From: Peptococcaceae bacterium
Lineage (GTDB): Bacteria > Bacillota > Desulfitobacteriia > Desulfitobacteriales > Syntrophobotulaceae
Assembly: GCA_012521215.1 (NCBI GenBank)
Contig: JAAYMU010000116.1
Coordinates: forward strand, 1 to 57,548
Length of the DNA: 57,548 nucleotides
Direction: 5' to 3'
Shown here one piece after another: positions 12,624 to 54,200 of this stretch (positions are counted from its first letter, which is position 1; each line of letters begins with the position of its first letter). The notes below the pieces were generated by a model. The model saw nothing but the letters and a program-made list of their open reading frames with translations, was not told the origin of the DNA and did not search any database. The position numbers and the translations under genes were made by a program.

Positions 12624-12714
12624 ACCCTTTAAAGTTATCCCGTGAGATAACCAAGGGTAAGAAGAATTGTTATATGTATGCAATTCCTCCTGCCTTGGGG
12701 TGGGAGGATTTTTA
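12624..12714 (+). promoter_or_regulatory. PyrR-dependent attenuator between pyrR and pyrB
   Basis: This is a second PyrR-binding hairpin: ACCCTT (12624-12629) pairs with AAGGGT (12653-12658), and inner GTTATC (12634-12639) with GATAAC (12646-12651), closing the same CCGTGA hexaloop as the first site. The terminator is CCTCCTGCC (12686-12694) paired with GGTGGGAGG (12699-12707, two G-U), then ATTTTTA. It gives a second UMP-dependent control point for the biosynthetic genes. Confidence 0.9.
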
Positions 12715-12741
12715 ATTATCGGTAAGGAGGGAGTTTGCACC

Positions 12742-13677
12742 ATGCGATGGAGGCACAAAGATTTACTTGATTTAGACAATTTATCGGCCCAGGAAATTGA
12801 ACTGGTTTTACAAAGCGCTCTTTCCATGAAAGAAGTATTATTCCGCCCTATAAAGAAGCTGCCTACTCTCAGGGGAAAGTCTATTGCCTTAATGTTTTAT
12901 GAAAACAGTACCAGAACCAGGACGTCCTTCGAAACGGCTGCCAAAATTCTGGGAGCGGATGTTACCAACTTTTCCGTGGCCCAAAGCAGCGTCAATAAAG
13001 GAGAAAGCTTGTTGGATACAGCAAAGACCCTGCAGGCTATGAATATTGATTTGGTAATTATCCGGCATGCCTGCTCAGGAGCTTCCGAGTTTTTAGCCAA
13101 ACAGTTAAAAGCCGGAGTTATTAATGGCGGGGATGGACAGCATGCCCATCCGACGCAGGCCCTGTTGGATTTTTTCACCATGAAGGAACGCTGGGGAGAA
13201 TTTAAAGGGAAAAAGGTTCTGATTGTGGGGGATATACTTCATTCCAGAGTAGCCCACAGCAATGCTCTGGGACTGAAGAAGCTTGGTGCTGAGGTTGTAT
13301 TAATCGGACCGCCCACCCTTCTTCCACCGGAAATGAGTTATTTGGGAGTTAAGACTTCCTATGATTTGGACAGCGAATTACCGGGGGCTGATGCTGTGAT
13401 GGCTTTGCGCCTTCAATTGGAACGCCAGCAGAGTGGCTTGTTCCCTTCCCTTAGGGAATATAACCGGCTTTACGGCCTAACCCGGGAGAAAATAGCTAAG
13501 ACGGGCAAGGATACCATTATCCTGCACCCGGGGCCGCTGAACAGAGGAGTGGAAATCTCCAGCGATCTGGCCGACAGTGTTCAGTCCGTGATTGAAGAAC
13601 AAGTCACTAATGGAGTAGCTGTCAGAATGGCCTTGATTTATTTGCTGATAGGGGGAACAAGCAATGTTATGGCTTAA
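12742..13677 (+). CDS. pyrB: Aspartate carbamoyltransferase catalytic subunit
   Basis: 311 residues from the ATG at 12742 behind GGTAAGGAGGGAG; upstream in-frame codons lie inside the attenuator. It joins carbamoyl phosphate to aspartate. Carbamoyl-phosphate-binding STRTRTSFE, the catalytic-site block GDGQHAHPTQALLDFFT and the HPGPLNRGVEI end motif are intact. No pyrI regulatory subunit is present, as in Bacillus. It overlaps pyrC by 14 bases. Confidence 0.97.
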   Translation: MRWRHKDLLDLDNLSAQEIELVLQSALSMKEVLFRPIKKLPTLRGKSIALMFYENSTRTRTSFETAAKILGADVTNFSVAQSSVNKGESLLDTAKTLQAMNIDLVIIRHACSGASEFLAKQLKAGVINGGDGQHAHPTQALLDFFTMKERWGEFKGKKVLIVGDILHSRVAHSNALGLKKLGAEVVLIGPPTLLPPEMSYLGVKTSYDLDSELPGADAVMALRLQLERQQSGLFPSLREYNRLYGLTREKIAKTGKDTIILHPGPLNRGVEISSDLADSVQSVIEEQVTNGVAVRMALIYLLIGGTSNVMA

Positions 13678-15001
13678 AAATGTGCATCTGGTTGATCCGG
13701 GGCAAGGGATATCGGATAAGGCGAGTCTGTTGATTAAGGACGGTAAAGTGGCCAAGGTGTGCCGGGGAGAAAAACAATTGACGGAAGAGGAAGTACTGGC
13801 AACCTTAGGGGTTTCTGAACTTAAGGAAGTAAGCCAAGTAGACGGAGAAGGAAAATTTTTGTTTCCGGGACTGGTGGATGTTCATGTTCATTTTAGAGAA
13901 CCGGGGCAGGAAGATAAGGAAGATATCAACAGCGGTTCCCGGGCAGCCGTCAGGGGCGGTTTTACCTCTGTTCTAGCCATGGCCAACACCCAGCCTGTTA
14001 TTGATACCAGGGCCCTTGTGGAGTTTGTGCGCTTACAGGGCGAAAGAGCCGGCCTGGCCAGGGTCTATCCTGTGGGCGCCGTAACTAAGGGTTTTCAAGG
14101 CCGGGAACTGACGGAAATGGTTGATCTTCAAAAAGGGGGAGCGGTGGCTTTTTCCGATGACGGTCTTGGGATTCAAAGCGCGGAAACTATGCGTCTGGCC
14201 TTGGAATATGCCAAACTTACCGGTTGCCCGCTTATCAGTCACTGTGAAGACAACAGTTTAGCCGGTCAGGGTGTAATGCGCAAGGGTGAAGCAAGTGCCA
14301 GATTAGGGTTAAAGGGTATTCCGGCCAGCGCTGAAAGCGTTATGGTGGCCCGTGATGCCTTGCTTGCCGGGGAAACCGGTGGCAAAGTTCATATCGCTCA
14401 CGTTTCAACCAAAGAAAGTGTCTGGATTATCAGAACGGCTAAGAAACTGGGCATAAATATCAGCGCTGAAGTAAATCCTCATCACCTATTATTGACAGAT
14501 GAGGATGTGCAGTTGACTGATACTTCGTATAAAGTAAACCCGCCCTTGCCTAACAGAGAGGATCAGGAAGCACTGTTAGAAGGTCTGCTGGATGGGACCC
14601 TCGATATGCTGGCGACGGATCACGCTCCTCATACCTGGGAAGAAAAAATGAGACCCTTTGCGGAGGCTCCTTTTGGCATTAATGGTTTGGAGGCTGCTTT
14701 AGCCGCTTTGTGGCAGGAGTTAGTGCTCAAAGGTAAAATGAAACCGGAAAAACTAATCGAGCTTTGGTCCCTTAACCCGGCCAAACGCTTTGCGCTCCAA
14801 GGTGGAAGCTTAAAAGCAGGAAGTCCGGCCGATATGGTTTTGTTTGATCCCAAGTGGCGGGAAAAAATCACGGCTGAATCCCTGGAATCCAAAGCCCAAA
14901 ATACACCTTTCTTAGAAAAAGAGCTGCAAGGATTTCCGATAATGGTTTGGGTGGAGGGTAAGCTGGTTATGGAGAATAGAAAGATTGTTGGGAAGAAATA
15001 A
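13664..15001 (+). CDS. pyrC: Dihydroorotase (class I)
   Basis: 445 residues, a zinc amidohydrolase that cyclises carbamoyl aspartate. The metal-binding DVHVHFREPGQEDKEDI near residue 75 and the C-terminal ATDHAPHTWEEK, with HCED and IAHVSTKESV between, are conserved. The start overlaps the 3' end of pyrB by 14 bases, so translation is probably coupled. The length is typical for the Bacillus-type enzyme. Confidence 0.96.
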   Translation: MLWLKNVHLVDPGQGISDKASLLIKDGKVAKVCRGEKQLTEEEVLATLGVSELKEVSQVDGEGKFLFPGLVDVHVHFREPGQEDKEDINSGSRAAVRGGFTSVLAMANTQPVIDTRALVEFVRLQGERAGLARVYPVGAVTKGFQGRELTEMVDLQKGGAVAFSDDGLGIQSAETMRLALEYAKLTGCPLISHCEDNSLAGQGVMRKGEASARLGLKGIPASAESVMVARDALLAGETGGKVHIAHVSTKESVWIIRTAKKLGINISAEVNPHHLLLTDEDVQLTDTSYKVNPPLPNREDQEALLEGLLDGTLDMLATDHAPHTWEEKMRPFAEAPFGINGLEAALAALWQELVLKGKMKPEKLIELWSLNPAKRFALQGGSLKAGSPADMVLFDPKWREKITAESLESKAQNTPFLEKELQGFPIMVWVEGKLVMENRKIVGKK

Positions 15002-15089: not shown

Positions 15090-16172
15090 ATGGGCTGGCT
15101 GGTCTTACAAGACGGAAAAGCATTTGCAGGAGAGAAAATAGGTTTTTGGCCGCATAACGGGGATCAAGTAATTGGGGAAGTTGTTTTTAATACTTCCATG
15201 AGCGGTTATCAGGAAATAATTACGGATTTATGTTGCGCCGGCCAGATTCTAACCTTTACCCACCCCCATATAGGCAACTATGGCTGGCATCAGGAAGACA
15301 GCGAAGCCGCTAAAATCCTGTTAAAAGGAATTATTGTCCGAGAACTGTCCGGCGGAGAGGGAAGCCTTCATGCTGATCAAAGCTTGGAGGCTTTTTGCCG
15401 CAAGAAAAAAATTGCCGGCTTAAAAGGAGTAGATACCAGAGCTTTAACCAGACATATCCGCAACAATGGCACTATGCCGGGGGTTTTGGTTGAGGAAATG
15501 GCTGAAGGGCTTAAATTTTGGCAAGCAAATACCTCCCAAGTGATTCATCCGGCCATGCCTTGGGCATATCAAGCCGGTACCGCCGAAGAGTATGTTGTTC
15601 CGGGAAAAGGACCTGTTTTGGCCATTCTCGATTTGGGAGTTAAACGGAGTATTTTAAGCTGCCTACACAACAGAGGCTACAGCCTTCATGTCTTTCCGGC
15701 CGGAACTTTGGCTGAGGAAATTTTAGAAATAAAACCTCAGGGCTTGGTTATAAGCAACGGCCCGGGTAATCCGGCCGAATTGTCGAAAATTGCCGATAAT
15801 ATAAGCAATTTGCTGTCCAAATTACCGATTTTAGGAATTGGCTTGGGGCATCAGCTTATAGCCTTGGCCGCCGGAGCGGGGACCTACCGGCTCCCTTTTG
15901 GGCATAGGGGAGGCAACCATCCGGTTCAAAACAAAAATAGCGGTAAAGTTGTCATCACTTTTCAAAATCACGGCTATGCCGTAAGTGAAGAAACACTTCG
16001 CAGGACAGGTTTAGAAGTATTGTATACCAATCTCAACGACGGAACTGTCGAAGGCTTGCAGCATGAAAGATATAAGATCTTAACAGTGCAATTTCATCCT
16101 CAAACAGCTGGGGAACCGGCAGAACATGAAGAGATTTTTGCTTTGTTCGATGATATGGTGAAAAGGGGGTAA
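15090..16172 (+). CDS. carA: Carbamoyl phosphate synthase small subunit with altered glutaminase site
   Basis: 360 residues with the full CarA fold: N-terminal domain ([27 protein letters not shown]) and a C-terminal class I amidotransferase domain ([26 protein letters not shown]). Normally this subunit hydrolyses glutamine and sends NH3 to CarB. Here the nucleophile motif GICLGHQ reads GIGLGHQ, with Gly251 (codon GGC, 15840-15842) in place of Cys. The triad motif HPE reads HPQ, with Gln338 (CAA, 16101-16103) in place of Glu; His336 is kept. Both changes are in frame within a complete gene, so glutaminase activity should be lost while the structural role remains. AAGGAGGAAG precedes the ATG, and carB follows after 4 bases. 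Confidence 0.93.
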
Positions 16173-51912: not shown

Positions 51913-51987
51913 TAAGAAGGGTTAGAGGAAACGGTAAGAAGTGTTATGGGAAAGGGTAAGAAAGGTTATGGAAAAGGAGGGATTAGG

Positions 51988-52572
51988 GTGCGCCAAGGGG
52001 TTTTAACCAGGAAGACTCTGGAAACGGATATCAAGGCTAAGCTGGTGCTTGACGGCCGGGGGGAAAGTAATCTGGATACAGGTCTTGGTTTTTTTGATCA
52101 TATGTTGAATTCTTTTTGTCGCTTTGCCTATTTTGATCTTGATCTAAAAGCTGTGGGCGACCTTGAAGTTGACCAGCACCATACCATAGAGGATTGTGGG
52201 ATTGTGTTGGGACAAGTTTTCAAGGAAGCCCTGGGGGATAAGAGGGGAATTCAGAGGGTTGCTGATTGCCTTTTCCCTATGGATGAGGCTCTGGCCCAGG
52301 TTGCAGTCGATATTTCCAACCGCGGCTATCTGGTTTGGCAAGTAGATTGTCCCCCGGGCATGGTTGGCGAGTTTCCGGTGGAAATGGCCGAGGAGTTTTT
52401 CCGGGCTTTTGCTTATAATGCCGGAATTACCTTGCATATTCGCCTGTTAAGCGGCAAGAACAGACATCATATTCTGGAAGCTATCTTTAAGGCTGTGGGC
52501 CGGGCGCTGGGACTGGCAGTAGGCTTAGATGGGCGTAACAGCGGTATTCCTTCCACCAAGGGAGTATTATAA
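51988..52572 (+). CDS. hisB: Imidazoleglycerol-phosphate dehydratase
   Basis: 194 residues from a GTG at 51988 behind AAAGGAGGG; the family's usual length of ~195 supports this start. It dehydrates imidazole glycerol phosphate. The two metal-binding repeats are visible: FFDHMLNSF plus DQHHTIEDCGIVLG, and the C-terminal RLLSGKNRHHILEAIFKAVG. hisH, often found next, is missing. Confidence 0.95.
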   Translation: MRQGVLTRKTLETDIKAKLVLDGRGESNLDTGLGFFDHMLNSFCRFAYFDLDLKAVGDLEVDQHHTIEDCGIVLGQVFKEALGDKRGIQRVADCLFPMDEALAQVAVDISNRGYLVWQVDCPPGMVGEFPVEMAEEFFRAFAYNAGITLHIRLLSGKNRHHILEAIFKAVGRALGLAVGLDGRNSGIPSTKGVL

Positions 52573-52674
52573 ATCTTAAAGTTAGTAACCATAAAGATAA
52601 TTACTGAAGGTCTAGGAAAATGACTTCCTTGGGACTTATGATGATAAAAAAATTAGGAAGTGGGTTGTAAGCAA

Positions 52675-53427
52675 GTGATTATATATCCGGCCATAGATTT
52701 AAAAGACGGTCAAGTTGTCCGGCTGCTGCAAGGAAACATGGAAAAAGCGACAGTGTTTGGGCATGACCCGGTTAAGGTAGCAGCTGACTTTTTAGAGCAA
52801 GGCACCAAGCACCTGCACCTGGTAGACTTAAATGGGGCTGTGGAAGGGAAGCCTGTTAACGACCAAGCGATTAGAAACATCCTGGCCCAAGTTCCTTTAA
52901 AGATTCAAGTCGGTGGGGGTATTCGTACTTTGGAGCGGATTGAAGAGCTGTTAGAATTAGGAGTATCAAGAGTAATCCTGGGGACGGTGGCCGTCAGAAA
53001 ACCCGAATTAGTGGCGGAAGCCGTGCGCCGCTACGGTGAGAGAATTATTGTGGGTATAGACGCTCATGAAGGGATGGTTGCGGTCCAAGGATGGGCGGAA
53101 AAAACGAAGCTTAAAGCCGAGGAACTGGGCTTAGCCATGAAAAAGGTAGGAGTTTCCCGGATTATATTTACGGATATTGCCAGGGATGGCATGATGACCG
53201 GGCCTAATATCAAAAGTACGGTTCAAATGGCTCAAGCTACCGGTTTAAAAATAATAGCTTCCGGCGGTATTTCCTGCTTGGAAGATTTAATCCGGCTTAA
53301 AAGCGAGGCTGACCGCGGCCATGGGATTGAAGGAGTTATTGTGGGCAAAGCACTTTATTCCGGTGCTTTTACCCTTAGGCAGGCTATGGAAGCAATGAAT
53401 AACCGGGGAGTATATAGGGGGGATTAA
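52675..53427 (+). CDS. hisA: ProFAR isomerase HisA
   Basis: 250 residues from a GTG at 52675, chosen because the family starts MIIYPAIDLKDG; an in-frame GTG at 52660 is less likely and neither has a strong ribosome-binding site. It isomerises ProFAR. The catalytic Asp lies in PAIDLKDGQVVRLLQG and the second in IFTDIARDGMMTGPN. VGGGIRTLE and ASGGIS bind the phosphates. hisF follows 5 bases after the stop. Confidence 0.95.
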   Translation: MIIYPAIDLKDGQVVRLLQGNMEKATVFGHDPVKVAADFLEQGTKHLHLVDLNGAVEGKPVNDQAIRNILAQVPLKIQVGGGIRTLERIEELLELGVSRVILGTVAVRKPELVAEAVRRYGERIIVGIDAHEGMVAVQGWAEKTKLKAEELGLAMKKVGVSRIIFTDIARDGMMTGPNIKSTVQMAQATGLKIIASGGISCLEDLIRLKSEADRGHGIEGVIVGKALYSGAFTLRQAMEAMNNRGVYRGD

Positions 53428-53432
53428 CATAG

Positions 53433-54200
53433 ATGTTAGCCAAAAGAATTATTCCCTGTCTCGATGTTCATGAAGGGCGGGTTGTCAAAGGTACAAATTT
53501 TGTGCAGCTCCGTGATGCCGGAGACCCGGTGGAACTCGCTTCTTTTTATGACCGGGAGGGGGCGGACGAACTTGTTTTATTGGATATTTCTGCTACGGTC
53601 GAAGGACGGGCCACTATGGTGGAAGTGGTTCGAAAAACAGCTGAACAGGTGTCCATTCCTTTTATCGTCGGCGGCGGATTGCGGACCATAGAAGATATTC
53701 GCCGCATCTTGAAAGCCGGCGCAGATAAAGTCTCTTTGAATACAGCTGCCATCCAAAACCCCAAGCTTATTGAGGAAGGAGCCTTAGCCTTCGGCAGGCA
53801 GTGTATAGTTGTAGCTATTGATGCCCGGCAGGTGGGAGAAATGCGCTGGGAGGTTTATACCCACGGTGGCGGGACTCCGACAGGGCTTGACGTTCTGGAA
53901 TGGGCCAAGCGAGTTGAAGATTTAGGAGCAGGAGAAATCCTACTGACTTCTATGGATCGGGATGGTACTAAAGACGGTTATGACAATGATTTGAACAGAA
54001 CAATCAGCAGAGCGGTGTCCATTCCGGTTATAGCCAGTGGCGGGGCCGGCAACCTTCAACATTTGGCGGACGCCTTGACTAAAGGAGAAGCAGATGCTGT
54101 GTTGGCAGCCTCAATTTTTCACTACCGGGAATATAGCATTCAAGAGGCTAAGAATTATTTAAAGGAGCGGGGAATTCCGGTAAAGCAGGGAAATTACTAA
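53433..54200 (+). CDS. hisF: Imidazole glycerol phosphate synthase cyclase subunit HisF
   Basis: 255 residues, a half-barrel duplication. It uses NH3 and PRFAR to form imidazole glycerol phosphate and AICAR. The catalytic Asp11 is in [19 protein letters not shown] and the second Asp in [31 protein letters not shown] and ASGGAGN are intact. The N-terminal Arg5 of the gate is kept. The enzyme normally receives NH3 from HisH, which is not encoded in this cluster. Confidence 0.96.

Follow-up and report, generated by a model that had tools for sequence, protein, structure and literature searches.

A bacterial CarA without its glutaminase nucleophile, in a genome with wider losses of glutaminase residues, suggests carbamoyl phosphate synthesis from free ammonia

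Textbooks and reviews name glutamine as the nitrogen donor for all bacterial carbamoyl phosphate synthetases (CPSases), and annotation pipelines label the proteins described here 'glutamine-hydrolyzing'. In Escherichia coli, the small subunit CarA hydrolyses glutamine by way of a thioester on Cys269, Cys269 and His353 being essential, and the large subunit CarB turns ammonia into carbamoyl phosphate (PMC6245113). What, then, would be the nitrogen source of a CPSase whose small subunit carries glycine in place of this cysteine? The question is raised by a pyr operon in the window, by which we mean the whole stretch of 57,548 nucleotides analysed, from the 2.5-Mb, 96% complete draft genome of a Peptococcaceae bacterium (G000).

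The CarA of the window is 360 residues long and, besides its match to TIGR01368 (Table 1), scores 390 bits with PRK12838 (cut-off 221). Its nucleophile motif, expected as GICLGHQ, reads GIGLGHQ, and in sequence alignments Gly251 falls on the residue altered in the E. coli C269S structures 1c30 and 1c3o, while Gln338 falls on the Glu of the E. coli HPE motif. The triad His336 is retained, as are the equivalent of the tunnel residue Gly293 of E. coli and the remaining glutamine pocket. An earlier note on this DNA had claimed GIGLGHQ and HPQ in a complete CarA placed between pyrC and an intact carB; the two codons, the model scores, the order of the open reading frames and the length and score of CarB bear this out, and the operon reads pyrR-pyrB-pyrC-carA-carB-pyrK-pyrD-pyrF. 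Set against the glutamine-hydrolysing CPS II type, the protein has the curated-model match and a CarB in the same operon, and lacks both the nucleophile Cys and the Glu of the HPE triad.

Table 1. Location of the features discussed; positions are those of the window unless a contig or locus is named.
Feature	Position	Strand	Remarks
pyrB, aspartate carbamoyltransferase, carbamoyl phosphate user	12667..13677	+	named from sequence and operon order
pyrC, upstream neighbour of carA in the pyr operon	13664..15001	+	named from sequence and operon order
carA, pyrimidine-type CPSase small subunit, without glutaminase nucleophile	15090..16172	+	full length; TIGR01368 381 bits (cut-off 307)
carA codon 227, AAT, Asp to Asn	15768..15770	+	GPGDP to GPGNP; common to three species of the genus
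carA codon 251, GGC, Gly for nucleophile Cys	15840..15842	+	aligned with E. coli Cys269
carA codon 338, CAA, Gln for triad Glu	16101..16103	+	HPE to HPQ; kept in G001 and G002
carB, CPSase large subunit, intact, 1057 aa	16177..19350	+	1482 bits to TIGR01369 (cut-off 1027)
hisB	51946..52572	+	
87-bp gap at the hisH position of G002	52573..52659	+	same gap layout in G001
hisA	52660..53427	+	
hisF, synthase subunit without glutaminase partner HisH	53433..54200	+	
80-bp gap in place of arg carA	G000:C212, L084 8355-8434		G001 counterpart G001:C160, L085
guaA	G000:C121, L094 436-1770		
purF	L136 1276-2643		
glmS	L143 176-1993		
purQ	L152 1498-2190		
nadE	L240 397-2403		

The genus, one of uncultured bacteria, was sampled through three draft MAGs, namely G000, G001 (the Peptococcaceae MAG JAAYOJ) and G002, the last of which is 5% contaminated. 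Their CarA proteins are 90% (G001) and 72% (G002) identical to that of the window, and Gly251, Gln338 and GPGNP are present in all three, with codon 251 read as GGC, GGC and GGT, respectively, and codon 338 as CAA throughout. In sister genera of the family and the order, every CarA examined has Cys, HPE and GPGDP, and the pyrimidine-type CarA of related genera have Cys and HPE in 17 of 17 cases. The earlier note had argued that two changes at once speak against a base-calling error. They are indeed no error, because the same changes recur in the independent assemblies of G001 and G002, and sequencing or assembly error was rejected on this ground. Decay as a pseudogene was also rejected, given intact frames and a dN/dS well below 1; although the genus is represented by draft MAGs only, the chance that error or decay accounts for this CarA is negligible. 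G000 and G001 have one carA each, and a search of the two genomes for a second, in G000 for an intact one, found none; a second carB does exist, without a carA.

CarA evolves under purifying selection, with dN/dS values of 0.19 (G000-G001) and 0.11 (G000-G002), about twice those of CarB (0.078 for G000-G001, 0.07 for the other pair). The glutaminase domain is relaxed, in that its extra conservation, seen in intact pairs, is lost in the CarA of the window's genus (C/N distance ratio 1.04 vs 0.78 in intact pairs). The 17 intact pyrimidine-type CarA share 130 invariant columns. Of these, Cys251 alone is altered in every one of the five Cys-less relatives, with Gly as the replacement throughout; the other residues of the glutamine pocket are largely kept in these five.

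With a probability of roughly 85%, we read these data to mean that CarB uses free NH3 and that CarA is its folded partner but no glutaminase, as part of a lineage-wide switch away from glutamine as amide donor. CarA would not hydrolyse glutamine because it has neither the Cys that forms the thioester nor the Glu of the triad, a loss of activity predicted from the chemistry of these enzymes; it would persist as a folded, conserved partner of CarB, kept for structure and perhaps for regulation. From sequence changes, conservation and gene order we infer that CarB would supply pyrimidine synthesis with carbamoyl phosphate made from bicarbonate, ATP and free cytosolic NH3, which may enter directly or via the old tunnel with its kept Gly293 equivalent. 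The likely driver would be constant high ammonium, in a presumably ammonia-rich niche. A natural ammonia-dependent CPSase with a non-catalytic small subunit had already been proposed from the window, and conservation in three species, a single carA, purifying selection, an intact carB and the glutaminase residues missing from many further amidotransferases in G000 (below) all argue for it. Since the CPSase of E. coli works with ammonia only at very high levels that are probably unphysiological (PMC6245113), a better NH3 affinity of CarB would be required. The retained glutamine pocket and tunnel Gly also weigh against this reading.

The second carB of G000 and of G001 ends an argC-argJ-argB-argD cluster and has no carA at its usual place, where sister genera and G002 show the order argD-carA-carB. 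In G002 the arg CarA reads GVGLGHQ and GPGNP, with a shortened HPE loop and NHS for NHG. The CarA tree groups it with the arg CarA of G005, which is intact, and places it far away from the pyr type, which argues that glutaminase function was lost separately in the two CPSases of the genus. Intact sisters, Cys to Gly in G002 and a deleted gene in G000 and G001 form a stepwise series, a natural experiment in glutaminase loss. G002 also has a further CPSase (L050, L086; G002:C123, C336), in which an intact-Cys CarA adjoins two glutamine synthetase genes. Native or contaminant, this system includes a 1347-residue CarB-like protein that has an additional C-terminal segment and shares 82% identity with a protein of G004.

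The two loci bear on another reading of CarA, as a glutamine sensor that binds its ligand without cutting it and tunes an NH3-using CarB. The motifs SNGPG, GHQ and QNHGY near the lost Cys, kept in G000, G001 and G002 as in the E. coli C269S protein (1c30/1c3o), would be in keeping with such a role, whereas the change of Asp227 to Asn, the lost Glu and a decayed PGP loop weaken the site. Moreover, the arg CarA of G002 has altered the NHG itself, and in G000 and G001 arg CarA is gone with its carB retained. A sensor is unlikely on this evidence, and a CarA that is the folded, non-glutaminase partner of an NH3-using CarB remains the preferred reading.

Judged by the residues lost, glutaminase loss in the window's genome would be wider than CarA, a genome-wide pattern that spares PyrG. 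The earlier note had dealt with CarA alone, and had noted neither this pattern nor the lack of hisH in the same window. A PF00117 search found no hisH match anywhere in G000, and the his operon passes directly from hisB to hisA, also in G001; G002 retains hisH between them. The matches of this search were CarA, PyrG and a GuaA fragment in G000, and CarA and PyrG only in G001. The sole GuaA found in G000 has 445 residues and a truncated glutaminase domain, and its contig is without a match in G001 and could be foreign. PurQ of G000 reads GISNGFQ (Cys to Ser), where sisters and Thermotoga PurQ (3d54) have GICNGFQ. GlmS starts MGVFGYIG, with Cys1 absent and Arg26 changed to Gln. NadE, read within the genus in G000 only, has ELSEDLW, with Ser at the nucleophile position of the Mycobacterium tuberculosis enzyme; its best match, 3sdb, has Ala there. 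Nucleophiles are therefore missing from three unrelated folds of one genome, namely class I (CarA, PurQ), Ntn (GlmS) and nitrilase (NadE), the Cys to Ser sites of which could in principle retain weak activity. Together with the missing hisH and arg carA, this is a loss across several folds, not the loss of all glutaminases. All tested proteins still score above the curated NCBIfam cut-offs for glutamine enzymes.

The DNA of glmS is 100% identical between G000 and G001 (L143/L142) and that of the purQ region 98-100% identical (L152/L153), so each counts as one observation. Such identity, vs a dS of about 0.3 in other genes of this pair, is compatible with recent exchange or shared contigs. GuaA, TrpG, GlmS and PurQ are intact in G002, not every contig of this contaminated MAG being placed; the contigs with its CPSase, his, purQ and PyrG genes are consistent with the genus, at 82-90% identity for most proteins. 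In the proposed switch, CarA is one case among several: in its genome, mutation or loss has also struck the glutaminase parts of arginine CPSase, IGP synthase, GMP synthetase, FGAM synthase, GlmS and NAD synthetase, with PyrG kept.

Several features speak against a full switch. PyrG of G000 is intact (GICLGMQ/HPE), a glutamine synthetase gene (glnA) is present, and the Cys of PurF is retained; glutamine is therefore still produced and consumed. The YSTTGSS motif of this PurF reads YSSKGLN; in PurF of G443, G296 and G217 it is also lost, differently in each. E. coli GlmS is not known to use free NH3, and the loss in GlmS is for that reason not simply explained. In favour of the switch, AsnB and GOGAT gave no match in G000 or G001, GOGAT being matched in G002, G008 and G013, and a glutamate dehydrogenase gene is present. 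The queries for NadE, AsnA, GatA, GltB and GDH were partly approximate E. coli or Bacillus subtilis sequences, which served as bait only, and the weak or missing match of the approximate AsnA query carries no weight as an absence.

The presence of GlnA and the intact PyrG site would also suit a reading in which the ammonia still comes from glutamine, set free by a glutaminase acting in trans. Even then, the complex would remain an NH3-dependent CPSase, and spending ATP on glutamine only to release NH3 would be wasteful. We regard such a detour as quite improbable and retain direct use of free NH3 by CarB.

The survey covered 398 genomes of the phylum, with a pattern excluding Cys at the CarA nucleophile. 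Cys-less CarA was found in 10 of them, always with Gly, and the nine besides that of G000 are CarA by alignment. The second triad position varies by lineage (HPQ, YPE, QPE, DPE, HPR), which is expected for a dead site. This bears on whether a CarA with Gly251 and Gln338 might still be an active glutaminase, by another nucleophile or mechanism, as the conserved protein with its kept fold and pocket might allow. Gly gives no nucleophile, however, and the residues essential in E. coli CarA include both Cys269 and His353 (PMC6245113), which, with the varied losses, makes an active enzyme very improbable. A dead site in a folded subunit fits better, and in G443 and G296 (family f23) CarA has lost the triad His too, which also tells against a sensor.

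Family f23 shows further changes: PurQ reads GLGNGFQ in G443 and GIADGFQ in G296, NadE of both has Gly in the nucleophile place, PyrG of G443 reads GIGLGLQ and GuaA of G296 AIGYGMQ. In G217 (f88), Cys is lost in both CarA, a TrpG-like protein, PyrG, GuaA and NadE (L194, L189, L197, L208), the most extreme case seen. Both families carry multi-enzyme losses similar to those of the window's genome, whereas f18 (G293) and f38 (G094) have only a single Cys-less CarA each, alongside intact ones. In the CarA tree, the f23 proteins (G296, G443; L178, L179) nest beside the window's genus with support of 99/98. An independent origin of their change was rejected on this basis, and the f23 Cys loss is probably shared with the window's genus through transfer of the pyr operon; the remaining f23 losses (PurQ, NadE, PyrG, GuaA) are its own. 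At least four changes are left on the tree, the branches of G217 and G094 being long and uncertain.

Cys-less PurQ, mostly with Gly, was verified in 19 of the 398 genomes, from nine families (L246-L271), and is much wider across the phylum than Cys-less CarA; seven of 26 pattern matches were not PurQ and were dropped. The two occur together in three genomes vs about 0.5 expected (p = 0.009, hypergeometric over 398 genomes, kinship ignored). It seems fairly likely that several lineages of the phylum each exchanged glutamine for free ammonia as nitrogen donor across the proteome, with three folds (triad class I, Ntn class II, nitrilase) losing their nucleophiles together, the CPSases first (G002 has lost only its two genus-type CarA sites) and most amidotransferases last (G000 and G001), spread perhaps by transfer of Cys-less pyr operons.

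Because CarA and most other glutamine-using enzymes of the genus have lost the cutting residue, the pattern suggests that free ammonia replaces glutamine in their biosynthesis. If true, some bacteria use free ammonia directly for pyrimidines, arginine, histidine, purines and NAD, and the question why cells spend ATP on channelling glutamine nitrogen through tunnels despite plentiful ammonia becomes testable. In the open-licence literature we found no earlier reports of a Cys-less bacterial CarA or of joint glutaminase loss. Multi-enzyme glutaminase loss across one genome appears to be undescribed, and its recurrence in other families is the point for specialists.

Of the systems already described, vertebrate CPS I (human CPS1, 5dot/6uel) is like the window CarA in keeping, by sequence match, a glutaminase-like domain with the nucleophile Cys replaced. 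The earlier note had cited CPS I as an enzyme that lacks the Cys and uses NH3, rightly so: the glutaminase domain of human CPS I is dead, with Ser294 for Cys, and only NH3, taken from outside, is used (PMC4655335). CPS I is a fused single chain of about 1500 residues, mitochondrial and activated by N-acetylglutamate, whereas carA and carB of the window are separate genes in a pyr operon; the tunnel of human CPS1 is blocked by Gln at the position of E. coli Gly293, the Gly that the window CarA keeps. E. coli CarAB, a bacterial CPS II for which a passage in a review gives glutamine as the physiological nitrogen donor, is like the window in operon and subunit architecture, both window subunits being full-length and above curated cut-offs, and differs in having the nucleophile Cys and the triad Glu. 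The same position is altered in the C269S and C269G laboratory mutants of E. coli CarA, C269S being the protein of 1c30/1c3o. Such Cys269 mutants, as Rubino et al. are said to have found, lose the use of glutamine and keep that of NH3. They were made by hand, whereas the change in the window is natural, fixed in the genus and accompanied by the replacement of another triad residue. In another amidotransferase family, type N NAD synthetases set a precedent with NH3 as physiological donor (PMC3376133); they are without a glutaminase domain, whereas NadE of G000 keeps the whole domain, with its Cys replaced. From these comparisons we infer that the Cys-less CarA is a new bacterial variant on the known theme of a natural NH3-dependent CPSase, which would work like vertebrate CPS I.
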